Below, in pieces: positions 9,987-64,000 of a stretch of 64,000 nucleotides of DNA; position 1 is the first letter of the stretch, and each line of letters begins with the position of its first letter. The DNA comes from Heliocidaris tuberculata. Its lineage: Eukaryota; Echinodermata; Echinoidea; Camarodonta; Echinometridae. Both the position numbers and the translations under genes were made by a program. The notes under the pieces are model-generated. The model ran no database searches and was not told the origin of the DNA. It was given only the letters and a program-made list of their open reading frames with translations. The stretch spans positions 30,237,254-30,301,253 of the forward strand of contig CM046851.1 of the NCBI GenBank assembly GCA_025618425.1, in the 5' to 3' direction.

Positions 9987-11465
9987 GAACAAGTGAATGA
10001 GTAAATTACGCAATGCGTAATAAATGTCCCCGCCGGAAGTGCAGATCTGTGGAAATTAACTAGCCTTAACCTTAAGACTTCAGTGAAAAACTTTAGTGAA
10101 TAAAATAATAATGTTACTGCATGCAAAAGAAGAGAATACCAACAATGCATGTATACAACTGAAATATAAAACATGAAAACATTATGAACCTTCAGCCATT
10201 TTGAATAAATTTGCATAAATTTGCATGAATAATGAATTTCAAAATTCTGTGTAGAAGTTTGGAAGCCCCCACCCAGCCCTATCAGATAAAACAATCGGAA
10301 TCAAAATTCGATGTGAAATAGAGGAGAAGTAGCATTTTTTGTCAATTTTGAATAAATTTGCATAAATTTGCATAATTAATGAATTTCAAAATTCTGTGTA
10401 GAAGTTTGGAAGCCCCCACCCAGCCCTATCAGATAAAACAATCGGAATCAAAATCCGATGTGAATTTTGAATAAATTTGCATAAATTTGCATAATTAATG
10501 AATTTCAAAATTCTGTGTAGAAGTTTGGAAGCCCCCACCCAGCCCTATCAGATAAAACAATCGGAATCAAAATCCGATGTGAAATAGAGGAGAAGTAGCA
10601 TTTTTCGTCAATTTTGAATAAATTTGCATAAATTTGCATTATTAATGAATTTCAAAATTCTGTGTAGAAGTTTGGAAGCCCCCACCCAGCCCTATCAGAT
10701 AAAACAATCGGAATCAAAATCCGATGTGAAATAGAGGAGAAGTAGCATTTTTCTCAATTTTGAATAAATTTGCATAAATTTGCATAATTAATGAATTTCA
10801 AAATTCTGTGTAGAAGTTTGGAAGCCCCCACCCAGCCCTATCAGATAAAACAATCGGAATCAAAATCCGATGTGAAATAGAGGAGAAGTAGCATTTTTCG
10901 TCAATTTTGAATAAATTTGCATAAATTTGCATAATTAATGAATTTCAAAATTCTGTGTAGAAGTTTGGAAGCCCCCACCCAGCCCTATCAGATAAAACAA
11001 TCGGAATCAAAATCCGATGTGAAATAGAGGAGAAGTAGCATTTTTCGTCAATTTTGAATAAATTTGCATAAATTTGCATAATTAATGAATTTCAAAATTC
11101 GGTGTAGAAGTTTGGAAGCCCCCACCCAGCCCTATCAGATAAAACAATCGGAATCAAAATCCGATGTGAAATAGAGGAGAAGTAGCATTTTTCTCAATTT
11201 TGAATAAATTTGCATAAATTTACATAATTAATGAATTTCAAAATTCTGTGTAGAAGTTTGGAAGCCCCCACCCAGCCCTATCAGATAAAACAATCAGAAT
11301 CAAAATCGGCCAAGAAATGACGGAGAAGTAGCATTTTCTAACATTTGAGCACACACGGACAGACGGACGGACGGACGGACGGACGGACGGACGGACACAC
11401 ACACACACGCACACACGAACGGAGCCCGTTTCATAGTCCCTTCGCGAACTTCGTTCGGCGGGGAC
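9987..11465 (-). mobile_element. Minisatellite-bearing element, copy A (147-bp repeats, pearl/Helentron-like)
   Basis: Read on the minus strand it begins GTCCCCGCCGAACGAAG at 11465, has GT-rich and (TCCG)n microsatellites near 11345-11410, then about seven tandem copies of a 147-bp unit (unit starts near 10647, 10793, 10940, 11087, 11233). It ends with CCGGCGGGGAC, a short hairpin ATTACGCA-T-TGCGTAAT and CACTTGTTC near 9987. The first and last GC-rich blocks are inverted copies of each other. Three more copies lie in LARP7 introns. Its start lies only about 158 bp past the P450 stop codon, so it may enter that gene's 3' UTR. An open frame shared by the copies is part of the repeat and not a credible gene. 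Confidence 0.85.
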
Positions 11466-26868: not shown

Positions 26869-27891
26869 TTAGCTCATAACCCGCTATTGTTGACCACTGT
26901 CACTTCTGGGTTCTCGGTTCTGTCGATGATGTCGACAGAAATCATGTAGAAAGGTATAGCCTTTGAAATAATCCAGCAGCCATGGGTTTCATAATGGACA
27001 GGGCAAAGAGTTAAAATAAATTTTGTATAAATTACCATAAATAATTTTCTAGATAAAATTTCAAAATTCCGAGTAGAAGTTCAATGAACCTCATGAAAGT
27101 CTTCCTCAATAAATGAGGAAGAAGAAGCAAGTTTTGTGATTTTGTAATAAATTTCGCATAAATTAGCATAAATAATTTTCTAGACAAAATTTCAAAATTC
27201 CATGAAGAAGTTCAATGAACTTCATGAAAGTCTTTTAGATGGAAGAAAAAAAATCAAAATCAGTCAATAAATGAGGAAGAAGAAGCAATTTTTGTGATGT
27301 TTTAATAAATTTTGCATAAATTTGCATAAATAATTAGCATAAATTATTTTCTAGACAAAATTTTAAAATTCCGAGTAGAAGTTTAATAAACCTCATGAAA
27401 GTCTTTCAAATGGAACAAAAAAAAAATCGAAATCGGTCAATAAATGAGGAAGAAGAAGCCATTTTTGTGATCTTTTAAATAAATTTCGCATAAATTAGCA
27501 TAAATAATTTTCTAGACAAAATTTCAAATTTCCGAGTAGAATTTCAATGAACCTCATGAAAGTCTTTCAGATGCAAAAAAAAAATCGAAATCGGTCAATA
27601 AATGAGGAAGGAGAAGCAATTTTTGTGATTTTTGAGAAATGCGCATAAATTAGCATATTTAATGAGTTTCAAAATTCTGTGTAGAAGTTTCGAATCCCCC
27701 ACCTAGTGCTATCATATAAAGCAAACGGAATTAAAATCGGGTAAGAAATGGCGAAGAAGAAGCATTTTGAAATTGTGGACGGACGACAGACGAAGGACGG
27801 ACGGACGGACGGACGGACGGACGGACGACGGACGACGGACGCCTCGCCACGGCATAAGCTCATCTGGCCCATTCGGGCCGGATGAGCTAAT
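26869..27891 (-). mobile_element. Second minisatellite-bearing element family (TTAGCTCAT ends, ACGG microsatellite)
   Basis: The ends are TTAGCTCAT (26869-26877) and ATGAGCTAA (27882-27890). The interior has four or five imperfect units of about 160-170 bp (marker AATGAGGAAG near 27110, 27272, 27444, 27602), then a GACGGACGG microsatellite (27777-27840), then a hairpin GGCCCATTCGGGCC near 27867-27880. The design parallels the 147-bp element family, and part of the last unit (GTGTAGAAGTTTCGAATCCC) resembles it, so the two are probably related families. Confidence 0.8.
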
Positions 27892-31087: not shown

Positions 31088-34000
31088 TTTCTGTTCTCTT
31101 TTCTTTGCCCTCTCTCTCTCTCTCTCCTTTTCTGTTCTCTTTTCTTTGCCCTCTCTCTCTCTCTCTTCTTTTCTCTTCTCTTTTCTTCCCCCTCTCCATC
31201 TCTCTTTTTTTCTCTCTTTTTTTTTAGGCTGAAAAGTGGTACGGTCAATACCGTACCAAACGTAGCGGCTCCGACAGGCCTGTGTACTAGCCTCTTCTTC
31301 ATTTGGGAAATTAGGTTAAATTATATTTTTTGCTACTCCCAAATGAGTAGCATTGTGTTATATCCAAAATGTCACTAAATTTATAAAATTACAAAGAAAT
31401 TTTATACACTACTGTAAATAGTCTGTAAATAGTGATTTTTAGTACCTTGGCAACCTGGCACTCACTGAGAGTAGATCTAGGCCTACATATCGGTTGTGTT
31501 TTGTATCTCCTGTACTAATAATTTTGTATTTCTCTTTGTTTACACAATTTTCCCAAGTTTTAAAACAATATTCTGAACTCTTTCCTCCTTCGTTGTGTTT
31601 TAGATGGTCGAACGTTTGGACAAAGCGAATGAGAAACGACCATCTTTGAAGAAGAAACTTCCAGAGTCTGAGATCATCGACATCTTTGAAGAGATTTGCT
31701 CCGACCAGTTCAACAAGTAAGAGGATACTGATGTTCCAGTCTTTCTCCCAGGAAGTTTTGATCACATCATATAGCTCTCAATATTTGTAGGTCTTTTGGC
31801 AGTCTGGCAGATAGAAGTGACAGGTTTAATTTCAATGAAGTATTGTTATGTAGTATCCAGTTTTTACCAACTTGTAATGATTTATTGATAATGATAATTG
31901 ATGATATTGGTGGTGGTGATGATGATGATGATGATGGTGGTGGTGATGATGATGGTGATGGTGGTGATGACGGTGATGATGGTGATGGTGGTGATGATGA
32001 TGATGGTGATGGTGGTGATGATGATGGTGATGGTGGTGATGATGATGGTGATGGTGATGATGATGATGATGGTGATGGTGGTGGTGATGATGATGATGGT
32101 GATGGTGGTGATGATGATGATGGTGATGGTGGTAATGATGATGATGGTGATGGTGGTGATGATGATGATGATGGTGATGGTGGTGATGATGATGATGATG
32201 ATGGTGATGGTGGTGATGATGATGATAATGATGGTGGTGGTGGTGATGATGATGATGGTGATGGTGGTGATGATGATGATGATGATGGTGATGGTGGTGA
32301 TGATGATGATGATGATGATGATGATGGTGATGGTGGTGATGATGGTGATGATGGTGATGATGATGATGATGGTGATGGTGGTGATGATGATAATGATGGT
32401 GGTGGTGGTGATGATGATGATGGTGATGGTGGTGATGATGATGATGATGATGGTGATGGTGGTGATGATGATGATGATGATGGTGGTGATGGTGGTGATG
32501 ATGGTGATGGTGGTGATGGTGGTGATGATGGTGATGGTGGTGATGATGATGATGATGGTGATGATGGTGATGGTGGTGATGATGATGATGGTGATGGTGG
32601 TGATGATGGTGATGGTGGTGATGATGATGATGATGGTGATGGTGGTGATGATGGTGATGGTGGTGATGATGATGGTGATGGTGGTGATGATGATGATGGT
32701 GATGGTGGTGATGACGATGATGATGGTGATGGTGGTGATGATGATGATGGTGATGGTGGTGATGATGATGATGATGGTGATGGTGGTGATGATGGTGATG
32801 GTGATGATGATGATGATGATGGTGATGGTGATGATGATGATGATGGTGATGGTGGTGATGATGATGATGATGGTGATGATGATAATGATGCTGGTGCTGG
32901 TGATGGTGATGATGTTATTAGTAGAGAATATCAGGAGGGATTGTCAAGAGGGCATCTTTACTAATAATTATTTCTCATTCCAATATTTTTTTTTTGTCCT
33001 TCCTGGGGCCCATTGCACAAAACTTGCGTTTAATCGCAAGTCCTTATTGCGCACTTCTGATTGGCTAAAAACAAAGTTGCGTTTGATTTTCCTGAGTTGC
33101 GCTCAAACGCAAGTTTTGTGCAACCGTGCGGCCCCTGTACTTATAATTCTTTCAACAATAATTGACTGAGGTCATCTTAACAAATCAAACGCAAGTCCTT
33201 ATTGGGCACTTCTGATTGGCTAAAAACAAAGTTGCGTTTGATTTTCCTGAGTTGCGTTCAAACGCAAGTTTTGTGCAACGGGCCCCTGTACTTATAATTC
33301 TTTCAACAATGATTGACCGAGGTCATCTTAACAAATTCCCTCCTCTCTTATTTTGTCATGTAGTATTGGAGTAAAGGAGATCAACGGCAAGAAGCGTCTG
33401 TCTGGACCTGGATCTAAGATCCAAGATACTCCTGGTATCATGCAGGGTGGAGGAAAGTGGCCCTTCAGGTAATAACATGCTTGGTTTAGTTGTAGGGGCA
33501 TTACTGTCCCATTTTGGATTGGAGGGGGATGTCCGACCAAATATTCCAACAAGTGATCAAAAATTTTCTAACATTAAAAAAACAAGGGGAAAAAATACAA
33601 GGTCCTCTCTTTTTCAGTTTTTCAACACTGACAACAAAATGGTTTTTAGATTTTCAAATTTGCCAGTATATCTTGTTGAAAAATGTTCAACATACAAAGT
33701 AAAAAGGAAAGTTTAGAAATGTTTTTCACTTGTAGAAATAGGCATTTCTGAGTTCTGACTTTTTTTGTCAAGATGTTCAACAAATTTTAGTCTATACGTC
33801 GTCAAAATCGATAACATAGATGGACCATTTCTTCATCCTTGCATACAAAGAGAACTGATACGATTGTGATCTTTTGTCTGGCACACAATTAGTTATAGCA
33901 GATGAGAGAAGATATGGAAAGAGTGCTATTTGTTCTATTTTCAAGATTTGTAATCAAGAGTTCTTCAAAGATTGATCTTCTTCCTTTCAGAATGTTGCAG

Positions 34001-41924: not shown

Positions 41925-41948
41925 CGCTGGATCGATTGGGCTACTTTT

Positions 41949-41992
41949 AGCGACCAATAAGACTTCCGGTCCGCGACCAATAAGACTTCCGG
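41949..41992 (+). promoter_or_regulatory. Doubled CCAAT / ETS-like motif at left border
   Basis: GCGACCAATAAGACTTCCGG occurs twice in a row with TCC between. CCAAT plus ACTTCCGG (ETS-like) pairs are promoter-like. The inverse motif CTTATTGGTCGC occurs twice beyond the right array (about 52693-52722). Either both are terminal sequences of the element, or they are promoter modules of host genes. Undecided. Confidence 0.5.
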
Positions 41993-42280
41993 CGTCTGCT
42001 AGCGCGGAAAACAATAGGATATGGCGCTATGGTGTCTTCAAATGTTCCAACGCAAAATGAGAGTGTAAGATGGGTGATAAAAATAGTAAAAGTGATATAA
42101 AAATTAATACTCGACACTCTAATGTAAAAGTAATGTGTGTGATATTATAGCAGAATAATTTTTCTTTATTCTGATATAATTTCAGGGCTGATAAATTTCA
42201 ATTTCACTTTTTAAGTTGAGATTACTTTTTAATTGATACACCCCAAAATGTACTCAGATTGTTTTAAATTTAGGGCTTTT

Positions 42281-45075
42281 AAAACTATCGTATGACATTT
42301 TAACTAAATCATGACCTATATGAGATTAAAGCTGAATAGTTGCTCTTTACTCTCATATAGGCCACATGCCGAAACTTTTTGTCTGGATCTTACTGTTTTA
42401 AATTGAGATCAGGGCTCAAAACAGCATACCGGAGGTCTTATCCGCATACTACACACGGAAATGGACAAAATGCGTTTTTAACTTTCAAGGCTTTTAAAAC
42501 TATCGTATGACATTTTAACTAAATCATGACCTATATGAGATTAAAGCTGAATAGTTGCTCTTTACTCTCATATAGGTCACATGCCGAAACTTTTTGTCTG
42601 GATCTTACTGTTTTATATTGAAATCAGGGCTCAAAACAGCATACCGGAGGTCTTATCCGCATACTACACACGGAAATGGACAAAATGCGTTTTTAACTTT
42701 CAAGGCTTTTAAAACTATCGTATGACATTTTAACTAAATCATGACCTATATGAGATTAAAGCTGAATAGTTGCTCTTTACTCTCATATAGGTCACATGCC
42801 GAAACTTTTTGTCTGGATCTTACTGTTTTAAATTGAAATCAGGGCTCAAAACGGCATACCGGAGGTCTTATAAGACCTAGTACACACGGAAATGGACAAA
42901 ATGCGTTTTAACTATCAAGGCTTTTAAAACTATCGTATGACATTTTAACTAAATCATGACCTACATGAGGTTAAAGCTGAATAGTTGCTCTTCACTCTCA
43001 TGTGTGTCACATGCCGAAACTTTTTGTCTGCGTCTTACTGTTTTAAATTGAAATCAGGGCTCAAAACGGCATACCGGACGTCTTATCCGCACAATATAGC
43101 GGAAATGTACAGAATTCATTTTTAACTTTGAAGCCTTTTAAAACTATCGTATCACATTTTAACTAAATCATGACCTGTGTGAGGTTAAAGCTGAATAGTT
43201 GCTCTTTACTCTCATATAAATCACATGCCGAAACTTTTTGTCTGGATCTTACTGTTTTATATTGAAATCAGGGCTCAAAACGGCATACCGGACGTCTTAT
43301 CCGCACAATATAGCGGAAATGTACAGAATTCATTTTTAACTTTGAAGCCTTTTAAAACTATCGTATGACATTTTAACTAAATCATGACCTGTATGAGGTT
43401 AAAGCTGAATAGTTGCTCTTTACTCTCATATAAATCACATGCCGAAACTTTTTGTCTGGATCTTACTGTTTTAAATTTAGATCAGGGCTCAAAACAGCAT
43501 ACCGGAGGTCTTATCCGCACAATATAGCGGAAATGTACAGAATTCATTTTTAACTTTGAAGCCTTTTAAACCTATCGTATGACATTTTAACTAAATAATG
43601 ACCTATATGAGAGTAAAGCTGAATAGTTGCTCTTTACTCTCATACAGGTCACATGCCGAAACTTTTTGTCTGGGTCTTACTGTTTTAAATTGAAATCAGG
43701 GCTCAAAACGGCATACCGGAGGTCTTATCCGCATACTACACACGGAAATGGACAAAATGCGTTTTTAACTATCAAGGCTTTTAAAACTATCGTATGACAT
43801 TTTAACTAAATAATGACCTATATGAGAGTAAAGCTGAATAGTTGCTCTTTACTCTCATACAGGTCACATGCCGAAACTTTTTGTCTGGATCTTACTGTTT
43901 TATATTGAAATCAGGGCTCAAAACAGCATACCGGAGGTCTTATCCGCATACTACACACGGAAATGGACGAAATGCGTTTTTAACTTTCAAGCCTTTTAAA
44001 ACTATCGTATGACATTTTAACTAAATCATGACCTGTATGAGTTTAAAGCTGAATAGTTGCTCTTTACTCTCATATAGGTCGCATGCCGAAACTTTTTGTC
44101 TGGATCTTACTGTTTTAAATTGAAATCAGGGCTCAAAACGGCATACCGGACGCCTTATCCGCATACTACACACGGAAATGGACAAAATGCGATTTTAATA
44201 TTCAAGGCTTTTAAAACTGTCGTATGACATTTTAACTAAATCATGACCTATATGAGGTTAAAGCTGAATAGTTGCTCTTCACTCTCATGTATGTCACATG
44301 CCGAAACTTTTTGTCTGCGTCTTACTGTTTTAAATTGAAATCAGGGCTCAAAACGGCATACCGGACGTCTTATCCGCACAATATAGCGGAAATGTACAGA
44401 ATTCATTTTTAACTTTCAAGCCTTTTAAAACTATCGTATGACATTTTAACTAAATCATGACCTGTATGAGTTTAAAGCTGAATAGTTGCTCTTTACTCTC
44501 ATATAGGTCGCATGCCGAAACTTTTTGTCTGGATCTTACTGTTTTAAATTGAAATCAGGGCTCAAAACGGCATACCGGACGCCTTATCCGCATACTACAC
44601 ACGGAAATGGACAAAATGCGATTTTAATATTCAAGGCTTTTAAAACTGTCGTATGACATTTTAACTAAATCATGACCTATATGAGGTTAAAGCTGAATAG
44701 TTGCTCTTCACTCTCATGTATGTCACATGCCGAAACTTTTTGTCTGCGTCTTACTGTTTTAAATTGAAATCAGGGCTCAAAACGGCATACCGGACGTCTT
44801 ATCCGCACAATATAGCGGAAATGTACAGAATTCATTTTTAACTTTGAAGCCTTTTAAAACTATCGTATGACATTTTAACTAAATCATGACCTGTATGAGG
44901 TTAAAGCTGAATAGTTGCTCTTTACTCTCATATAGGTCGCATGCCGAAACTTTTTGTCTGGATCTTACTGTTTTAAATTGAAATCAGGGCTCAAAACGGC
45001 ATACCGGACGCCTTATCCGCGTACTACACACGGAAATGGACGAAATGCGTTTTTAACTATCAAGGCTTTTAAAAC
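42281..45075 (+). repeat. Left array, about 13 monomers of 214-215 bp
   Basis: The marker TTTTAAAACTATCGTATGAC recurs with AAAAC at 42281, 42496, 42711, 42926, 43140, 43354, 43568, 43783, 43998, 44213, 44427, 44642, 44856 and finally 45071, where it breaks into unique sequence. Steps are 214 or 215 bp. Variant bases repeat every second monomer near the centre (AAACTGTCG at 44213 and 44642, 429 bp apart), so the newest copies arose as dimers. Confidence 0.95.
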
Positions 45076-45082
45076 TAAAAGA

Positions 45083-46186
45083 ATGTACAAAGTTGTTTCC
45101 CCAGCTAACGTATTGATACAAATGGTAAGCAAACATGAGAACATTGAAATAGCAGACTCATTCCCAGGATGTTCCAAAGGCTTTGAAAACGGTCAATGTT
45201 ATTTGCTCCATCACGTACTTATGGTGAATGGGGATTATGTTAAGACATACAAACGCGAGGGTGATCAATTTCAACTCATGAAAGGGAAAAAAAGAACAGG
45301 GCATGAATCGAGTTTATCAGAAATAAGTGATCAGACTAGGGAAAATGATTTATTTCTAATATACCTATGCAAGAGATCAGTGGACAATAATCTTGACAAA
45401 ATGGAAGTAAATATTGATAGATCTGGTTTAATTGGACCAATAGTCGGCCTTCCCAAAGGATTGAATGATAGTCTTTTAGACTCAGTCACTCCTATTCCTA
45501 CAAATATATTGCCGGACAATCACACAGTAGGCAAGTATTGTTTAGGAAAGCGCGATCTCGCACTTCTAACTAATGATAACTGGTTTAATGATGCAATAAT
45601 CACTGCCTATTTGTTTCTCTTAAAAGAAAGCATACCACAAAACGAACACAAAGCCAATAACATACTGTTGATGGATGCTTGTTGGGCGGGAAGCAGGCTT
45701 ACTCAAAACCGTTCTCTAAATTGGTACGTGAATGAGGCGAAATATCTAAATCGGAACAGGAATTGGGCTAACCATGACTTGATCTTTATTCCATTATCTT
45801 ACAGTAATCACTGGGTTTTGTTTGTAATGCAACCAATGTCTCACATTATTACCGTCATGGATCCTCTTGGAAATGCATCTCAGGCCACCGTAAGGACTGC
45901 AAAAAGGGCTATTCAGTTATGTGAATACATGCGTGCTCTCAATGCATGCAAGGTACTTGTTGATGGTTTTGATATGAATAGTAATATCAACAAATGGAAA
46001 ATTGTATTTCCTACTGGGTTACCGAAACAACTTGATGGGAATAATTGCGGGGTCTTTATCTGCATGTATGCCCGGTCTGTAATGGAAGGCAAACTCTTAG
46101 AATTTACTTCATCCTCTGAAACTTTGCAACAAATTAGAAACCTCATGCTGAGAGAATTTATTGAACGTAAATTGCTACCACTTTAA
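45083..46186 (+). CDS. Ulp1/SENP-type (C48) cysteine protease inside the fold-back
   Basis: An intact single-exon frame, 367 aa from this ATG. The frame stays open upstream into the last array monomer, to an ATG at 44954 (410 aa), but those 43 residues are repeat-derived, so the later start is preferred. The C-terminal half is a Ulp1 fold: LTNDNWFNDAIITAYLFLL (substrate groove), HW at H243, the acidic residue D260 in VMDPLG, Q316 in PKQLDG, and nucleophile C322 in NNCGVF (numbering from 45083). All four catalytic positions are present, so an active protease that cuts SUMO/ubiquitin-like tags is plausible. The N-terminal part (about residues 30-100) is unrecognised; GQCYLLHHVLMVNGDYVKTY faintly recalls the end of a ubiquitin-hydrolase fold but lacks its catalytic His. 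AATAAA overlaps the stop (46185-46190). Confidence 0.88.
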   Translation: MYKVVSPANVLIQMVSKHENIEIADSFPGCSKGFENGQCYLLHHVLMVNGDYVKTYKREGDQFQLMKGKKRTGHESSLSEISDQTRENDLFLIYLCKRSVDNNLDKMEVNIDRSGLIGPIVGLPKGLNDSLLDSVTPIPTNILPDNHTVGKYCLGKRDLALLTNDNWFNDAIITAYLFLLKESIPQNEHKANNILLMDACWAGSRLTQNRSLNWYVNEAKYLNRNRNWANHDLIFIPLSYSNHWVLFVMQPMSHIITVMDPLGNASQATVRTAKRAIQLCEYMRALNACKVLVDGFDMNSNINKWKIVFPTGLPKQLDGNNCGVFICMYARSVMEGKLLEFTSSSETLQQIRNLMLREFIERKLLPL

Positions 46187-46529
46187 TAAAGTACAGTAGA
46201 ACTTACCTAAGTTCCCTCTCTATAAATGCCTTTTATTTTAACCACCTAGTCTATATCCTGTTCCCTTAGGACCGAGGAAGGCACGTGTACCTTTCTAGAA
46301 AGGATCCCTGTCTCCAACTGGCCCCTCGTTTGGTGGCCTTTATTGGCATTATCCATGATTACCACAGATGTAAAGGGTTAGAAAGATAAATCTGATTAGA
46401 GTCATGACGAGTTTCTAATTTTCGACCATTCATTTCTAATCATCTTCGGAAACCAAAAATCTGCTATATGATTTTGAAATATTCTAAGATATTACTTCCT
46501 GAAGATGATTATATAAAAGACACCCGGTA
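46187..46529. other. Unique spacer between protease gene and right array
   Basis: Starts with the poly(A) signal overlapping the stop codon. Contains an imperfect palindrome TAATCATCTTCGGAA (46437-46451) / TTCCTGAAGATGATTA (46496-46511), immediately followed by TATATAAAAG (about 46510-46519), a TATA-like box reading into the right array. Its function is unknown. Confidence 0.55.
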
Positions 46530-49500
46530 TGCCGTTTTGAGCCCTGATTTCAATTTAAAACAGTAAGATCCAGACAAAAAGTTTCGGCATGTGACCTATA
46601 TGAGAGTAAAGAGCAACTATTCAGCTTTAAACTCATATAGGTCATTATTTAGTTAAAATGTCATACGATAGGTTTAAAAGGCTTCAAAGTTAAAAATGAA
46701 TTCTATACATTTCCGCTATATTGTGCGGATAAGACCTCCGGTATGCTGTTTTGAGCCCTGATCTAAATTTAAAACAGTAAGATCCAGACAAAAAGTTTCG
46801 GCATGTGACCTATATGAGAGTAAAGAGCAACTATTCAGCTTTACTCTCATATAGGTCATTATTTAGTTAAAATGTCATACGATAGGTTTAAAAGGCTTCA
46901 AAGTTAAAAATGAATTCTGTACATTTCCGCTATATTGTGCGGATAAGACCTCCGGTATGCTGTTTTGAGCCCTGATCTAAATTTAAAACAGTAAGATCCA
47001 GACAAAAAGTTTCGGCATGTGACCTGTATGAGAGTAAAGAGCAACTATTCAGCTTTACTCTCATATAGGTCATTATTTAGTTAAAATGTCATACGATAGT
47101 TTTAAAAGCCTTGAAAATTAAAAACGCATTTCGTCCATTTCCGTGTGTAGTATGCGGATAAGACCTTCGGTATGCTGTTTTGAGCCCTGATTTCAATTTA
47201 AAACAGTAAGACCCAGACAAAAAGTTTCGGCATGTGACCTATATGAGAGTAAAGAGCAACTATTCAGCTTTAATCTCATATAGGTCATTATTTAGTTAAA
47301 ATGTCATACGATAGTTTTAAAAGGCTTCAAATTTAAAAACGCATTTCGTCCATTTCCGTGTGTAGTATGCGGATAAGACCTCCGGTATGCTGTTTTGAGC
47401 CCTGATTTGAATTTAAAACAGTAAGACCCAGACAAAAAGTTTCGGCATGTGACCTGTATGAGAGTAAAGAGCAACTATTCAGCTTTACTCTCATATAGGT
47501 CATTATTTAGTTAAAATGTCATACGATAGTTTTAAAAGCCTTGATAGTTAAAAACGCATTTTGTCCATTTCCGTGTGTAGTATGCGGATAAGACCTCCGG
47601 TATGCCGTCTTGAGCCCTGATTTCAATTTAAAACAGTAAGACCCAGACAAAAAGTTTCGGCATGTGACCTATATGAGAGTAAAGAGCAACTATTCAGCTT
47701 TAATCTCATATAGGTCATGATTTAGTTAAAATGTCATACGATAGTTTTAAAAGGCTTCAAATTTAAAAACGAATTTTGTACATTTTCGCTATATTGTGCG
47801 GATAAGACGTCCGGTATGCCGTTTTGAGCCCTGATTTGAATATAGAACAGTAAGACCCAGACAAAAAGTTTCGGCATGTGACCTATATGAGAGTAAAGAA
47901 CAACTATTCAGCTTTAAACACATATAGGTCATGATTTAGTTAAAATGTCATACGATAGTTTTAAAAGGCTTGAAAATTAAAAACGCATTTCGTCCATTTC
48001 CGTGTGTAGTATGCGGATAAGACCTCCGGTATGCTGTTTTGAGCCCTGATTTGAATTTAAAACAGTAAGACCCAGACAAAAAGTTTCGGCATGTGACCTG
48101 TATGAGAGTAAAGAGCAACTATTCAGCTTTACTCTCATATAGGTCATGATTTAGTTAAAATGTCATACGATAGGTTTAAAAGGCTTCAAAGTTAAAAATG
48201 AATTCTGTACATTTCCGCTATATTGTGCGGATAAGACGTCCGGTATGCCGTTTTGAGCCCTGATTTGAATATAGAACAGTAAGACCCAGACAAAAAGTTT
48301 CGGCATGTGACCTATATGAGAGTAAAGAGCAACTATTCAGCTTTACTCTCATATAGGTCATTATTTAGTTAAAATGTCATACGATAGGTTTAAAAGGCTT
48401 CAAAGTTAAAAATGAATTCTGTACATTTCCGCTATATTGTGCGGATAAGACGTCCGGTATGCCGTTTTGAGCCCTGATTTGAATATAGAACAGTAAGACC
48501 CAGACAAAAAGTTTCGGCATGTGACCGATGTGAGAGTAAAGAGCAACTATTCAGCTTTAATCTCATATAGGTCATGATTTAGTTAAAATGTCATACGATA
48601 GGTTTAAAAGGCTTCAAAGTTAAAAATGAATTCTGTACATTTCCGCTATATTGTGCGGATAAGACGTCCGGTATGCCGTTTTGAGCCCTGATTTGAATAT
48701 AGAACAGTAAGACCCAGACAAAAAGTTTCGGCATGTGACCGATGTGAGAGTAAAGAGCAACTATTCAGCTTTACTCTCATATAGGTCATTATTTAGTTAA
48801 AATGTCATACGATAGGTTTAAAAGGCTTCAAAGTTAAAAATGAATTCTGTACATTTCCGCTATATTGTGCGGATAAGACCTCCGGTGTGCTGTTTTGAGC
48901 CCTGATCTAAATTTAAAACAGTAAGATCCAGACAAAAAGTTTCGGCATGTGACCTGTATGAGAGTAAAGAGCAACTATTCAGCTTTACTCTCATATAGGT
49001 CATTATTTAGTTAAAATGTCATACGATAGTTTTAAAAGCCTTGAAAATTAAAAACGCATTTCGTCCATTTCCGTGTGTAGTATGCGGATAAGACCTTCGG
49101 TATGCTGTTTTGAGCCCTGATTTCAATTTAAAACAGTAAGACCCAGACAAAAAGTTTCGGCATGTGACCTATATGAGAGTAAAGAGCAACTATTCAGCTT
49201 TAATCTCATATAGGTCATTATTTAGTTAAAATGTCATACGATAGTTTTAAAAGGCTTCAAATTTAAAAACGCATTTCGTCCATTTCCGTGTGTAGTATGC
49301 GGATAAGACCTCCGGTATGCTGTTTTGAGCCCTGATTTCAATTTAAAACAGTAAGACCCAGACAAAAAGTTTCGGCATGTGACCTGTATGAGAGTAAAGA
49401 GCAACTATTCAGCTTTACCCTCATATAGGTCATTATTTAGTTAAAATGTCATACGATAGTTTTAAAAGCCTTGATAGTTAAAAACGCATTTTGTCCATTT

Positions 49501-52500
49501 CCGTGTGTAGTATGCGGATAAGACCTCCGGTATGCCGTCTTGAGCCCTGATTTCAATTTAAAACAGTAAGATCCAGACAAAAAGTTTCGGCATGTGACCT
49601 ATATGAGAGTAAAGAGCAACTATTCAGCTTTAATCTCATATAGGTCATGATTTAGTTAAAATGTCATACGATAGTTTTAAAAGGCTTCAAATTTAAAAAC
49701 GAATTTTGTACATTTTCGCTATATTGTGCGGATAAGACGTCCGGTATGCCGTTTTGAGCCCTGATTTGAATTTAGAACAGTAAGACCCAGACAAAAAGTT
49801 TCGGCATGTGACCTATATGAGAGTAAAGAACAACTATTCAGCTTTAAACACATATAGGTCATGATTTAGTTAAAATGTCATACGATAGTTTTAAAAGGCT
49901 TGAAAATTAAAAACGCATTTCGTCCATTTCCGTGTGTAGTATGCGGATAAGACCTCCGGTATGCTGTTTTGAGCCCTGATTTGAATTTAAAACAGTAAGA
50001 CCCAGACAAAAAGTTTCGGCATGTGACCTGTATGAGAGTAAAGAGCAACTATTCAGCTTTACTCTCATATAGGTCATGATTTAGTTAAAATGTCATACGA
50101 TAGGTTTAAAAGGCTTCAAAGTTAAAAATGAATTCTGTACATTTCCGCTATATTGTGCGGATAAGACGTCCGGTATGCCGTTTTGAGCCCTGATTTGAAT
50201 ATAGAACAGTAAGACCCAGACAAAAAGTTTCGGCATGTGACCGATGTGAGAGTAAAGAGCAACTATTCAGCTTTACTCTCATATAGGTCATTATTTAGTT
50301 AAAATGTCATACGATAGGTTTAAAAGGCTTCAAAGTTAAAAATGAATTCTGTACATTTCCGCTATATTGTGCGGATAAGACCTCCGGTATGCCGTTTTGA
50401 GCCCTGATTTGAATATAGAAAAGTAAGACCCAGACAAAAAGTTTCGGCATGTGACCGATGTGAGAGTAAAGAGCAACTATTCAGCTTTACTCTCATATAG
50501 GTCATGATTTAGTTAAAATGTCATACGATAGGTTTAAAAGGCTTCAAAGTTAAAAATGAATTCTGTACATTTCCGCTATATTGTGCGGATAAGACGTCCG
50601 GTATGCCGTTTTGAGCCCTGATTTGAATATAGAACAGTAAGACCCAGACAAAAAGTTTCGGCATGTGACCGATGTGAGAGTAAAGAGCAACTATTCAGCT
50701 TTACTCTCATATAGGTCATGATTTAGTTAAAATGTCATACGATAGGTTTAAAAGGCTTCAAAGTTAAAAATGAATTCTGTACATTTCCGCTATATTGTGC
50801 GGATAAGACCTCCGGTGTGCTGTTTTGAGCCCTGATCTAAATTTAAAACAGTAAGATCCAGACAAAAAGTTTCGGCATGTGACCTGTATGAGAGTAAAGA
50901 GCAACTATTCAGCTTTACTCTCATATAGGTCATTATTTAGTTAAAATGTCATACGATAGTTTTAAAAGCCTTGATAGTTAAAAACGCATTTTGTCCATTT
51001 CCGTGTGTAGTATGCGGATAAGACCTCCGGTATGCCGTTTTGAGCCCTGATTTCAATTTAAAACAGTAAGACCCAGACAAAAAGTTTCGGCATGTGACCT
51101 GTATGAGAGTAAAGAGCAACTATTCAGCTTTACTCTCATATAGGTCATTATTTAGTTAAAATGTCATACGATAGTTTTAAAAGCCTTGAATTTTAAAAAC
51201 GCATTTCGTCCATTTCCGTGTGTAGTATGCGGATAAGACCTCCGGTATGCTGTTTTTAGCCCTGGTTTCAATTTAAAACAGTAAGACCAAGACAAAAAGT
51301 TTCGGCATGTGGCATATATGAGAGTGAAGAGGAACTATTCAGCTTTGATCTCATATAGGTCATGATTTATTTAAAATGTTTTTAGCCCTGGTTTCAATTT
51401 AAAACAGTAAGACCCAGACAAAAAGTTTCGGCATGTGGTATATATGAGAGTGAAGAGGAACTATTCAGCTTTGATCATTATTTAGTTAAAATGTCATACG
51501 ATAGTTTTAAAAGGCTTCGAATTTAAAAACGAGTTCTGTACATTTCCGCTATTTTGTGCGGATAAGACCTCCGGTATGCTGTTTTGAGCCCCAATTTCAC
51601 TTTAAAACAGTAAGACCCAGACAAAAAGTTTCGGAATGTGACATATATGAGAGTGAAGAGGAACTATTCAGCTTTGATCTCATATAGGTCATTATTTAGT
51701 TAAAATGTCATACGATAGTTTTAAAAGCCTTGAATGTTAAAAACGCATTTCGTCCATTTCCGTGTGTAGTATGCGGATAAGACCTCCGGTATGCTGTTTT
51801 TAGCCCTGGTTTCAATTTAAAACAGTAAGACCCAGACAAAAAGTTTCGGCATGTGGCATATATGAGAGTGAAGAGGAACTATTCAGCTTTGATCTCATAT
51901 AGGTCATGATTTAGTTAAAATGTCATACGATAGTTTTAAAAGGCTTCGAATTTAAAAACGAATTCTGTACATTTCCGCTATTTTGTGCGGACAAGACCTC
52001 CGGTATGCTGTTTTGAGCCCCAATTTCACTTTAAAACAGTAAGACCCAGACAAAAATTTCGGCATGTGACATCTATGAAAGTAAAGAGCAACTATTCAGC
52101 TTTGATCTCATATAGGTCATTATTTAGTTAAAATGTCATACGATAGTTTTAAAAGGCTTCAAAATTAAAAATGAATTTTGAACATTTCCGCTATTTTGTG
52201 GGGATAAGACCTCCGGTATGCTGTTTTGAGCCCTGATTTCAATTTAAAACAGTAAGACCCAGACAAAAAGTTTCGGCATGTGACATATATGAAAGTAAAG
52301 AGCAACTATTCAGCTTTGATCTCATATAGGTCATTATTTAGTTAAAATGTCATACGATAGTTTTAAAAGGCTTCAAAATTAAAAATGAATTTTGAACATT
52401 TCCGCTATTTTGTGGGGATAAGACCTCCGGTATGCTGTTTTGAGCCCTGATTTCAATTTAAAACAGTAAGACCCAGACAAAAAGTTTCGGCATGTGACAT

Positions 52501-52583
52501 ATATGAGAGTAAAGAGCAACTATTCAGCTTTGATTTCATATAGGTCATTATTTAGTTAAAATGTCATACGATAGTTTTAAAAC
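46530..52583 (-). repeat. Right array, about 28 monomers, with 1930-bp higher-order repeat
   Basis: The same monomer as the left array, inverted. Rare variants recur exactly 1930 bp apart: GACCTTCGGTATG (47154 region and 49084 region), GCCGTCTTGAG (about 47606 and 49536), CTTTAAACACATATAGG (about 47909 and 49839), TCCGGTGTGC (48881 and 50811). So nine monomers were copied as a block. The distal part (about 51240-52583) is more diverged, with deletions, as expected for the older edge of an array. Confidence 0.95.
46806..46858. repeat. Conserved hairpin in each monomer (example copy)
   Basis: TGACCTATATGAGAGTAAAG (46806-46825) and CTTTACTCTCATATAGGTCA (46839-46858) are perfect 20-bp complements around the 13-nt loop AGCAACTATTCAG. 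The same arms, with few changes, occur in nearly every monomer of both arrays, for example about 43601-43655. Confidence 0.9.
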
Positions 52584-52689
52584 CCTTCCAATCTAGTCCT
52601 TCATTCCCATTGACGTTATCGCCAACGGAGATCCGGAAAATTTTCTTTTTCCTTTTTGATTGGAGATTTTGACGACATCATAATCCTCT

Positions 52690-52848
52690 TATTGGTCGCT
52701 GGCTTATTGGTCGCCAGTTTCAAGGAGCGTAGATCGATCGATCGGATTCAATATTTCGTTGCAACGACGAAGTTCTGAAGCCAAGAAGGGTACTGCTGTG
52801 TTCGTGCGCTGTTTTACGGGAAATCAGTAAACCCTAGGGAAGGTTATG
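52690..52848 (+). promoter_or_regulatory. LARP7: Candidate LARP7 promoter and 5' exon
   Basis: Two CTTATTGGTCGC boxes (inverted CCAAT, about 52693-52722) and an upstream GATTGG near 52660 precede a segment ending ATG|GTGAGA at 52846-52850, a good splice donor. Spliced to the acceptor at 54157-54158 (exon from 54159), that ATG would read Met-Val-Lys-Ser-Met-Met in frame with LARP7. So the start codon may be the last three bases of a 5' exon. No transcript is available to confirm. Confidence 0.45.
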
Positions 52849-55414: not shown

Positions 55415-55473
<59 letters not shown>

Positions 55474-58400
55474 GTCCGTCCGTCCGTCCGTCCGTCCGTC
55501 TGTCCGTGTGTGCTCAAATGTTAGAAAATGCTACTTCTCCTCTATTTCACATCGGATTTTGATTCCGATTGTTTTATCTGATAGGGCTGGGTGGGGGCTT
55601 CCAAACTTCTTCACAGAATTTTGAAATTCATTAATTATGCAAATTTATGCAAATTTATTCAAAATTGACGAAAAATGCTACTTCTCCTCTATTTCACATC
55701 TGATTTTGATTCCGATTGTTTTATCTGATAGGGCTGGGTGGGGGCTTCCAAACTTCTACACAGAATTTTGAAATTCATTAATTATGCAAATTTATGCAAA
55801 TTTATTCAAAATTGACGAAAAATGCTACTTCTCCTCTATTTCACATCGGATTTTGATTCCGATTGTTTTATCTGATAGGGCTGGGTGGGGGCTTCCAAAC
55901 TTCTACACAGAATTTTGAAATTCATTAATTATGCAAATTTATGCAAATTTATTCAAAATTGACGAAAAATGCTACTTCTCTATTTCACATCGGATTTTGA
56001 TTCCGATTGTTTTATCTGATAGGGCTGGGTGAGGGCTTCCAAACTTCTACACAGAATTTTGAAATTCATTAATTATGCAAATTTATGCAAATTTATTCAA
56101 AATTGACGAAAAATGCTACTTCTCCTCTATTTCACATCGGATTTTGATTCCGATTGTTTTATCTGATAGGGCTGGGTGGGGGCTTCCAAACTTCTACACA
56201 GAATTTTGAAATTCATTATTCATGCAAATTTATGCAAATTTATTCAAAATGGCTGAAGGTTCATAATGTTTTCATGTTTTATATTTCAGTTGTATACATG
56301 CATTGTTGGTATTCTCTTCTTTTGCATGCAGTAACATTATTATTTTATTCACTAAAGTTTTTCACTGAAGTTTTAAGGTTCAGGCTAGTTAATTTCCACA
56401 GATCTGCACTTCCGGCGGGGACATTTATTACGCATTGCGTAATTTACTCATTCACTTGTTCAAACATAAAATAACATTATCTCTTTTGAAGCAATAAACC
56501 ATGAGAATCTCTCCAAAACTGTCCATTTTATTTCTTCAATGTGTTGATTAAGTACTATTTCACTTTGGCAAAAGTCTTTGAAATGTTAGATAGTACCTTT
56601 ACTGGGTACCAAGATAACCTTCAAGTAGTAATGAAATGTTCAATTTTCAATATACTGCTTTATGTTTATTTCTGCAGGAATGCCTACCAAAGAAAGCAGA
56701 TCATGACTGGTTGAGGAAAGCGTTTTCATACTGTGGTAAAGTGGTCTATGTCAGCTTACCTCGTTACAAATCCACCTCAGACATCAAGGGCTTTGCTTTC
56801 ATTGAGTTTGAATGTCCAGAGGAAGCAGATAGAGCCTGTGAGGTGTGTATCATTATCATAGAAAGGTGCTATGACAGCTACCCTGTATAATATCACACCT
56901 CTGACAAGTACTGTCGGTAAAAATACCCCCTGGATTAATTACCCCTAGGTAGTTGTCTGAGGGTAATTTGGCTAACATGGTAACATGAAGATTATAATTC
57001 ATCCAGTAAACATAGCGATGATGTGAATCAGTTACTGGAAGTATTCACAATTGCTCCGCGACGTATTGTTAGTTCCTGCTGGCATCTTCTGGCAGTCTGA
57101 TTCCTGTTCTGGGGTACCCGTCTTTTTGTCCCCGCCGAACGAAGTTCGCGAGGGGACTATGAAACGGGCTCCGTTCGTGTGTGCGTGTGTGTGTGTGTCC
57201 GTCCGTGCGTCCGTCCGTCCGTGTGTGCTCAAATGTTAGAAAATGCTACTTCTCCATCATTTCTTGGCCGATTTTGATTCTGATTGTTTTATCTGATAGG
57301 GCTTGGTGAGGGCTTCCAAACTTCTACACAGAATCGTGAAATTCATTAATTATGCAAATTCATGCAAATTTATTCAAAAGTGACGAAAAATGCTACTTCT
57401 CCTCTATTTCACATCGGATTTTGATTCCGATTGTTTTATCTGATAGGGCTGGGTGGGGGCTTCCAAATTTCTACACAGAATTTTGAAATTCATTAATTAT
57501 GCAAATTTATGCAAATTTATTCAAAATTGACGAAAAATGCTACTTCTCTATTTCACATCGGATTTTGATTCCGATTGTTTTATCTGATAGGGCTGGGTGG
57601 GGGCTTCCAAACTTCTACACAGAATTTTGAAATTCATTATTCATGCAAATTTATGCAAATTTATGCAAATTTATTCAAAATGGCTGAAGGTTCATAATGT
57701 TTTCATGTTTTATATTTCAGTTGTATACATGCATTGTTGGTATTCTCTTCTTTTGCATGCAGTAACATTATTATTTTATTCACTAAAGTTTTTCACTGAA
57801 GTTTTAAGGTTCAGGCTAGTTAATTTCCACAGATCTGCACTTCCGGCGGGGACATTTATTACGCATTGCGTAATTTACTCATTCACTTATTTGTTCTACC
57901 ATGATGGGCGCGTGAGCTACCCAGCGGGAAAATTAGTTGCGGGAGAAACGGCGGGTGACTCCCCGAAGTACCCAGTCCCTCGCCTGAAATAAGTTGAACC
58001 GGAGACCTCTTTTTGAGACCAATATGGTGTATAGCATATAGGGGATGATACATGTTATATTTGCCTAGGTATAGCCAAATTCATCAAGGCAAATGTGCCA
58101 CACAATGATATTCGTCAAGCTTGTAATGTGAGCAATGCAGTTACTCTTAAGGAAGATCCAATGTTATATAGAGACAAAATTAATGAAGAATATGACTAAT
58201 GTAAGCTGCAAAATCTATTTATGTTTTTTCTTTCAGATGAATGTACTTCCAATGGTAAATAATCCTTTTTTTTTCCTTGTTTCTTTTATTGTATAGCTCA
58301 TGAATAATCCACCGCCAGATATGATGGACAGAGCAGGAAAATTCCCCAAAATGAGAGGACATAAGAGAATAGTGCCTTTAGAGTTTGATCAGACCAAGGG

Positions 58401-62680: not shown

Positions 62681-64000
62681 GTCCCCGCCGAACGAAGTTT
62701 GACTATGAAACGGGCTCCATTCATGTGTGCGTGTGTGTGCGTGTGCGCCCATTTAAAGCGATGACATAGGCATGAACTTTACATTCGGACCGATGACACA
62801 CAGCGAATCGATGACGTCATCGGTTGGCAGACCTGCGCAGATAGACCCAAATTACATGCTTTTGCATATAGGGGTAGGTCATCAGTTAGTGTTACACTAA
62901 CAAGTCGTCGGTTGTATAGTAACATTTCAGACGGGTCATCGGTTATGCGGTTGAATTCTACACACACAGGTCATCGGTTATGCGGTCAAATTCTAGGTTG
63001 TAAAAGATGTCATCGGTTAGGATGCGCGCACAAGTATGTGTGTGTGTGTGTGTGTGTGTGTCCGTCCGTCCGTCCGTCTGTCCGTGTGTGCTCAAATGTT
63101 AGAAAATGCTACTTCTCCGTCATTTCTTAGCCGATTTTGATTCCGATTGTTTTATCTGATAGGGCTGGGTGGGGGCTTCCAAACTTCTACACAGAATTTT
63201 GAAATTCATTAATTATGCAAATTTATGCAAGTTTATTCAAAATCGACGAAAAATGCTACTTCTCCTCTATTTCACATCGGATTTTGATTCCGATTGTTTT
63301 ATCTGATAGGGTTGGGTGGGGGCTTCCAAACTTCTACACAGAATTTTGAAATTCAATAATTATGCAAATTTATGCAAATTTATTCAAAATTGACGAAAAA
63401 TGCTACTTCTCCTCTATTTCACATCGGATTTTGATTCCGATTGTTTTATCTGATAGGGCTGGGTGGGGGCTTCCAAACTTCTACACAGAATTTTGAAATT
63501 CATTAATTATGCAAATTTATGCAAATTTATTCAAAATTGACGAAAAATGCTACTCCTCTATTTCACATCGGATTTTGATTTTGATTGTTTTATCTAATAG
63601 GGCTGGGTGGGGGCTTCCAAACTTCTACACAGAATTTTGAAATTCATTAATTATGCAAATTTATGCAAATTTATTCAAAATTGACGAAAAATGCTACTTC
63701 TCCTCTATTTCACATCGGATTTTTATTCTGATTGTTTTATCTGATAGGGCTGGGTGGGGGCTTCCAAACTTCTACACAGAATTTTGAAATTCATTATTCA
63801 TGCAAATTTATGCAAATTTATTCAAAATGGCTGAAGGTTCATAATGTTTTCATGTTTTATATTTCAGTTGTATACATGCATTGTTGGTATTCTCTTCTTT
63901 TGCATGCAGTAACATTATTATTTTATTCACTAAAGTTTTTCACTGAAGTTTTAAGGTTCAGGCTAGTTAATTTCCACAGATCTGCACTTCCGGCGGGGAC
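62681..64000 (+). mobile_element. Minisatellite-bearing element, copy D, cut by window end
   Basis: Starts GTCCCCGCCGAACGAAGTTT 47 bp after the last visible LARP7 exon. Unlike the other copies it has an extra 250-bp block (about 62757-63010) with four or five GTCATCGGTTA-type motifs between two microsatellites. Then come five 147-bp units and the conserved tail up to CGGCGGGGAC at the last base of the window. Confidence 0.9.

Follow-up and report, generated by a model that had tools for sequence, protein, structure and literature searches.

Long inverted ends made of tandem repeats characterize the TU elements of sea urchins and FB/NOF of Drosophila, and the plant MULEs Kaonashi/KI-MULE are Mutator-related elements that carry an Ulp1-type protease. 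To our knowledge, the plant Ulp1 MULEs have no USP fusion and no satellite arms. According to the available sections of PMC6446971, Rehavkus elements have 9-bp duplications and a PHD finger, carry a minisatellite ahead of the 3' end, and occur in arthropods and annelids. Published accounts of Rehavkus, including Rehavkus-1_TC, place satellite arrays in the inverted ends or close to them (PMC6446971 and PMC10218199, in the portions at hand). Tetris, a foldback element of Drosophila virilis, combines a flanking domain with ~220-bp tandem repeats and 8–10 bp duplications, and its arrays can seed satellite DNA (PMC4079207, partial text). The transposase of Tm1, a Mutator/Foldback element of Meloidogyne, is of the Phantom type; it carries FLYWCH and matches Pfam MULE (PMC3169594, partial text). 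Here we analyze a 64,000-nucleotide stretch of the Heliocidaris tuberculata genome, termed the window (C20:30237254-30301253; CM046851.1), which contains an element built of facing satellite arrays around the gene for a predicted SUMO-type protease. Genome searches were performed in the same 897-Mb, 69-contig assembly, whose contigs are abbreviated C1, C3, C4, C5, C7, and so on, with the window locus on C20. The window element belongs to a dispersed fold-back family and is likely a deletion derivative, lacking the transposase, of a Rehavkus-type (Mutator-related) element; it would be moved in trans, and its protease is probably the remnant of a transposase polyprotein.

Architecture of the window element

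The earlier note on this DNA, made by a model from the letters and a list of open reading frames (ORFs), described about 13 and 28 copies of a 214–215 bp monomer in two facing arrays. Tandem Repeats Finder (TRF) and a phase-anchored monomer count bear this out. TRF gave a period-214/215 array at 42262-45077 and further rows spanning 46517-52588. The count gave 13 plus-strand monomers (the first at 42277) and 28 minus-strand monomers (the last ending at 52582), and both outer array edges end at an identical monomer phase. The 25 longest inverted pairs listed are 92–96% complementary with lengths of up to 1284 nt, and monomer identity averages 0.91–0.92 both within and between the arms. The right arm also holds a 1930-bp internal duplication of nine monomers that is 99.0% identical. 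The window element thereby has the long inverted ends of tandem repeats that are typical of FB-type elements. The centre between the facing arrays (45078-46516, 1439 bp) contains a single intact C48 ORF, as the earlier note stated, and its Ulp1-type protease is the only recognized protein of the element, again in agreement with that note. An Rfam scan of the window at gathering thresholds gave no match.

The earlier note had taken the arrays as the outer edges of the element, and this placement had to be revised. The flanks outside the arrays (327–342 bp on the left and 147 bp on the right) are repeated at ~40 genome places each, including a copy on C7, and the element is therefore placed beyond the array edges, with its ends at 41935 and 52729. 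The motif GCGACCA occurs twice at each of these ends and is absent from the rest of the window element in a motif scan.

The C7 copy is the closest to the window element. The two share the centre (99.86% over 1470 bp), and outside the arrays they match over 343 bp on the left (100%) and ~151 bp on the right (99.3%). The arms contain 13 and 28 monomers in the window compared to 14 and 16 in the C7 copy. Because the centre is the same and the arm lengths differ, misassembly is an unlikely source of the facing arrays in the window, as judged from the assembled sequence. The variation in arm length between near-identical copies suggests that exact arm length is not critical. The proteases of the two copies have two protein differences: one residue is substituted, and in the C7 copy a stop replaces the catalytic Cys codon. 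The left arm of the C7 copy also contains a ~13-kb insert with inverted ends ACACTCTAAAAAAGGATTGGTCA... inside the satellite array (~7747640-7760690), which is probably another transposon nested in the array.

Dispersed ends and target duplications

The left terminal domain (E1) and the right terminal domain (E2) of the element were used to search the genome. The best 40 of 78 E1 candidates gave 41 rows at 40 places, and the best 40 of 89 E2 candidates gave 40 rows, with the window included in both sets. Among these best candidates, 37 of the 41 E1 rows start at window base 41934 or 41935. The E2 rows end exactly at 52729 in 27 of 40 cases, 11 extend 1–4 bases further, and 2 fall short. By identity, 20 E1 rows (plus one fragment) are at 96–100% and 20 are at 83–85%. 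Reading both end tables gave at least 27 same-strand E1/E2 pairs that lie 1.7 to ~36.5 kb apart.

Stretches of 71 bases over both ends were compared for 20 of the 27 pairs. Exact target duplications are present at the predicted ends of 10 of these 20 pairs (nine of 9 bp and one of 10 bp), and one of the ten, TTTGTTTGT, sits in a simple repeat. A sister family, whose protease genes are described below, has exact 9-bp duplications in four of the five copies with both ends (GACAATTTC, ACACGTGAA, GGCTCAGGC, and TCTGGCGAC), and GGCTCAGGC falls within a GGCTCA repeat. Simple-repeat duplications in the window and sister families together number two (C3 at 8.02 Mb and C8). The copy on C11 is inserted inside the end of another element. 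When its flanks are joined with a single duplication left out, 50 of 55 positions agree with an intact element end, which constitutes a paralogous empty site. The duplications at paired ends are evidence that the family is mobile, with the window and C7 copies irregular. The prediction of target duplications at the outer edges thus held for the family (10 of 20 and 4 of 5 pairs) and failed for the window copy. Dispersed copies, defined ends, and target duplications are hallmarks of FB-type elements that were found at the family level, with no target duplication at the window or C7 copy.

The protease and its polyprotein relatives

The window ORF extends from Met 45083 to the stop at 46186, encodes 367 amino acids, and matches Pfam Peptidase_C48 at 7.5e-17. 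The best matches among solved structures are SENP1 (top) and SENP2. His243, Asp260, Gln316, and Cys322, which we take to be the C48 catalytic residues, are kept in the relatives. The domain match and the His-Asp-Gln-Cys set are those of C48 (Ulp1/SENP) proteases, and on this sequence evidence the product is a predicted SUMO-type protease. NCBIfam gave one match for the window protein that is far under the cut-off (ElaD/SseL deubiquitinase, 15.7 of 250 bits). Structure models were of low confidence and too poor for use, with a mean predicted local distance difference test score (pLDDT) of 44.9 for the window protein and 31.8 for the sister ORF.

A C48 search of the genome gave 15 matches. Sister loci on C5, C8, C11, and C3 have ~50–53% protein identity to the window protease, and the sister proteases also lie between inverted arrays, in this case of a diverged ~220-bp monomer. 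The sister ORF (948 codons on C5) encodes a UCH/USP domain (1e-25) followed by C48 (6.2e-15), and the Cys and His boxes of the UCH domain in this USP (C19) are present. Three sister copies, C5a, C8 (from Met 47), and C11 (842 amino acids), have an open USP-Ulp1 frame with intact motif residues; those on C3, C1, and C5b are broken or rearranged. C5a and C8 have 15 differences over 2844 bases. An identical internal inversion of a ~140-codon protease piece is found at C1:74865060-74867402 and C5:34283014-34285625, which indicates that the rearranged form itself multiplied. The ratio of nonsynonymous to synonymous substitutions (dN/dS) between the window and sister proteases is 0.36/1.51 = 0.24 overall, 0.26/2.05 = 0.13 in the C48 part, and 0.52/1.13 = 0.47 in the N-terminal part, all with high or saturated dS. 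A palindrome with 19-bp arms lies within the window monomer (for example, at window 43564-43778), with 11 and 18 exact arms in the window, and the sister-family monomer carries a different palindrome.

A protein search that used only the window protein as the query gave no relative. The sister ORF searched against 5.8 billion proteins found one relative, P0001, which has the same two domains and covers 99% of the query. Residues 1–235 of P0001 used as the query led to one further protein, P0002, with 1937 residues. P0002 contains a PHD finger (residues 126–169, 9.3e-6), a UCH domain (4e-25), and a C48 domain (6.3e-13). Residues D695, D771, C818xxH821, and E854/855 lie between PHD and UCH, and we take their D-D-CxxH-E order to be MULE/Rehavkus-like. 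On this motif order, rather than on Pfam support, the region is designated as transposase-like, a candidate DDE transposase of the Mutator/Rehavkus type. P0002 is therefore a single chain of PHD, transposase-like region, USP, and Ulp1. Both database proteins, P0001 and P0002, have a transposase-like region in addition to the USP-Ulp1 fusion, and one of them, P0002, has the PHD finger as well. The combination of FLYWCH and a MULE domain that defines Phantom was not matched in P0002, and NCBIfam returned nothing for this protein.

Pieces of the same chain are present in the H. tuberculata assembly. At one of the two C4 loci (C4b), a transposase-like region 63–65% identical to P0002 persists alongside a portion of the USP, and the sequence is interrupted by stops. 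The copies on C1 and C5b keep P0002 residues 773–862 adjoining the USP. The PHD finger was found only in the database relative P0002 and was not seen in this genome. These data suggest that the window protease is likely the C-terminal part of a larger polyprotein with a USP and a transposase-like region, and not the stand-alone cargo that the earlier note proposed. Two stretches on C2 (C2:501672-503276, or L084, and C2:1215890-1216387) are distant relatives (22–34%) of the P0002 transposase-like region, and L084 has a HACAYH motif that resembles that of the P0002 region.

The array-gene junctions were compared in eleven fetched loci (C20, C7, C1, C1b, C5a, C5b, C8, C3, C11, and two on C4). Arrays of opposite orientation lie on both sides of Ulp1 or USP-Ulp1 coding sequence at eight of these (C1b and both C4 loci are the exceptions), and the expectation of further loci with protease genes between inverted arrays was thus confirmed. 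The 5' array ends within ~30 bp of the first P0002 homology in nine of the eleven loci, and no array of such period was found in the 9.9 kb fetched at the two C4 loci. The arm abuts the gene at five different points (Table 1), which indicates that the gene was cut from its 5' side at five points. The gene reads from E1 to E2 in C20, C7, C11, and C1 and from E2 to E1 in C5a, C8, and C3. Because the gene direction relative to the ends differs, recombination between the facing arms would appear to flip the centre.

Table 1. Parts of the window element (window positions) and array-gene junctions at the fetched loci
Feature	Position or locus	Strand	Detail
Whole element, end to end	41935..52729	+	10,795 bp; recurrent end positions and motif scan
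Left terminal domain E1	41935..42261	+	begins ATTGGGCTAC; GCGACCA motifs at 41950 and 41973
Left arm	42262..45077	+	13 monomers of 214-215 bp; TRF and phase-anchored count
Intact ORF, 367 amino acids, Peptidase_C48 (Ulp1/SENP-like)	45083..46186	+	corresponds to ~ residues 1580-1937 of P0002
Spacer, protease gene to right arm	46187..46516	+	no ORF of at least 200 amino acids; shared with C7 copy
Right arm	46517..52582	-	28 monomers, opposite orientation
Right terminal domain E2	52583..52729	-	reverse complement begins CGCTCCTTGAA; TGGTCGC motifs at 52693 and 52708
Junction near P0002 residue 773	C1, C5b
Junction near P0002 residue 988	C5a, C8, C3
Junction near P0002 residues 1133-1142	C11
Junction near P0002 residue 1581	C20, C7
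Junction near P0002 residue 1720	C1b

The window contains other repeats. TRF located arrays of a 147–158 bp monomer in both orientations at 10198-11396, 27106-27841, 55470-56250, 57240-57669, and 63103-63828. Three of these five arrays adjoin a four-base microsatellite (ACGG, GGAC, or GTCC), and the arrays resemble non-autonomous Helitron-type elements. A 1-kb GAT/GGT-rich repeat at 31762-33169 is open in several frames on both strands; it is of low complexity and carries no evidence for a gene.

Alternative explanations and related systems

The reading of the window element as a transposase-less fold-back derivative implies the following mechanism. A transposase supplied in trans would recognize the GCGACCA-bearing ends and move the element. 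Interrupted repair of an excision gap, or recombination, would start in an arm, copy the arm, and re-join inside the gene. Each such event would strip the transposase side and leave the C-terminal protease. Unequal exchange would alter arm length, and the arms could also flip the centre. Where they are present, USP and Ulp1 could take ubiquitin and SUMO off the transposase or off host factors of silencing and repair, and in the full polyprotein they may protect the transposase. The Ulp1 part in the window may be only a remnant because the C7 sister has lost the catalytic residue.

Several observations weigh against this reading. P0002 has no match to Pfam MULE at E≤10, and no intact transposase was found in this genome among the best 24 of 286 candidates. 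Canonical MULEs were considered as the mobilizer and rejected: there are 14 PF10551 matches in the genome and none lies within a paired element. The exact duplication is missing in 10 of the 20 tested pairs; one of these has N on one side, one has a near match (TAGCTCCGC/TAGCTCCCG), and the pairs at C7 9.65 and 10.95 Mb have identical flanks and are not independent. Target duplications are also missing from the window copy, from its C7 sister, and from the C1 copy of the sister family, and shifting the ends of the window copy gave only 5–7 base matches in a GATC-rich stretch. The missing duplication at the window and C7 copies is regarded as an irregularity, with exchange between the long arms as one possible cause. 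The right ends of the window, C7 (7.77 Mb), and C1 (~41.15-41.16 Mb) copies have four bases beyond 52729 in common, perhaps a common ancestral flank or a shifted end. A protease match is present in just two of the 27 paired elements, the window and C7. The interiors read among these 27 elements were those of the window, C7, and the left part of C1:74.87 Mb, and the left 5.4 kb of the latter has two same-orientation array blocks around 2.7 kb with no ORF of at least 150 amino acids. The C7 stop at the catalytic Cys also implies that current copies of the window subfamily do not need the protease.

The MULE search gave further matches near related sequences. One, at C14:9748282, lies ~9 kb outside an unpaired left end (C14:9738716-9739051). 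Others lie ~16 and 25 kb from same-strand C48 matches (C11:1211269-1228051 and C12:33129795-33154683) and are possibly other Mutator-protease elements. A virus origin was also rejected, with a viral-contig scan using P0002 giving one pattern-matching stretch and zero confirmed.

Dispersed satellite arrays could have been inverted by chromosome rearrangement with the protease gene trapped by chance. The window and C7 copies without target duplications fit this explanation, as does the satellite-like behaviour of the arrays, seen in their unequal copy numbers and in the near-identical nine-monomer duplication. It is nonetheless very improbable, since outer ends are common to ~40 places each, 10 of the 20 pairs compared have 9–10 bp duplications, and proteases of this family also lie on several chromosomes between facing arrays whose monomer has diverged. 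An ordinary satellite with a trapped gene was rejected on account of the common outer ends and the 9-bp duplications. The earlier note named chance inclusion in such a satellite, or a single fixed locus, as findings that would speak against its fold-back element. Both are contradicted by the 27 paired ends, the 9-bp duplications, and the eight protease loci, and its proposal of a fold-back element is upheld, the element being one of a dispersed mobile family. That the assembly joined unrelated repeat arrays is barely credible: N runs are present in two fetched regions, but the inverted organization recurs at eight fetched loci, several of which have matching ends and target duplications.

The remaining alternatives concern the protease. 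Elements that dropped the transposase might be kept since USP-Ulp1 aids the family, and not merely persist as polyprotein debris; the protein could, for instance, take SUMO or ubiquitin off proteins that act in silencing or repair. The open USP-Ulp1 frames at three sister loci with their motif residues in place, and the low dN/dS (above all in the C48 part, and with saturated dS), are consistent with such a helper. We consider this role unlikely because selection may predate the transposase loss, and intactness may reflect youth, given how few differences separate C5a from C8. In addition, breaks or rearrangements affect the copies on C3, C1, and C5b, the C7 copy is interrupted at its catalytic Cys, and only two of the 27 paired elements have a protease match. 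It is also possible that Ulp1 and USP process the polyprotein and separate the transposase from its accessory parts. Proteases process polyproteins in retroviruses and Polintons, and in P0002 the transposase-like region, USP, and Ulp1 belong to a single chain. Enzymes of the two families normally act after the Gly-Gly of a ubiquitin-like fold, which makes a processing role rather improbable.

A broader proposal builds on the polyprotein. SUMO and ubiquitin pathways govern transposon silencing and DNA repair in animals. In an animal transposon lineage, the transposase may have become joined to a deubiquitinase and a SUMO protease, and the lineage may later have spawned protease-only fold-backs that disarm SUMO/ubiquitin silencing for the whole family as helpers or anti-defence factors. 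The window element would be the minimal, Ulp1-only form. We advance this idea tentatively and rate it as doubtful. A transposase chained to one SUMO enzyme and one ubiquitin enzyme would, if true, be a direct and testable link between an element and a host pathway, and the combination could reveal how a jumping gene tampers with the host protein-tagging system. The family shows satellite arrays within transposon ends, which bears on the origin of satellites, and the recurrent trimming of the polyprotein from its N-terminal side bears on the origin of non-autonomous elements.

The earlier note knew of no element with this combination of parts. Arrays in inverted ends are known from Rehavkus-1_TC and Tetris in the portions of the literature at hand, and a literature search that did not extend to Repbase reports turned up no description of USP and Ulp1 fused to a transposase. 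The apparently new part is the USP-Ulp1 fusion and the protease-only derivatives; the facing-array architecture was already known.

The long inverted ends of tandem repeats are, in general structure, like those of TU and FB/NOF. The family is best described as a Rehavkus-like variant, likened by description only and with membership unproven at the level of a transposase tree. It resembles Rehavkus in its 9-bp target duplication (at the family level, not at the window copy), in the PHD finger of the database relative P0002, and in the satellite-like arrays next to the inverted ends. It departs from Rehavkus as described in that Ulp1, ubiquitin, and protease go unmentioned in the available sections of PMC6446971 and PMC13359780. 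Inverted ends that combine a flanking domain with ~220-bp tandem repeats, and 8–10 bp duplications, are shared with Tetris. Unlike the window element, Tetris has no apparent protein-coding capacity; no transposase is known for it, and Ulp1 is not mentioned in PMC4079207 (partial text). The paper on Tm1 likewise mentions neither a protease nor Ulp1 in the portion at hand (PMC3169594). The sea urchin family is like Tm1 in its fold-back ends, its 9-bp duplications, and its division into transposase-encoding and transposase-less members (PMC3169594, partial text).

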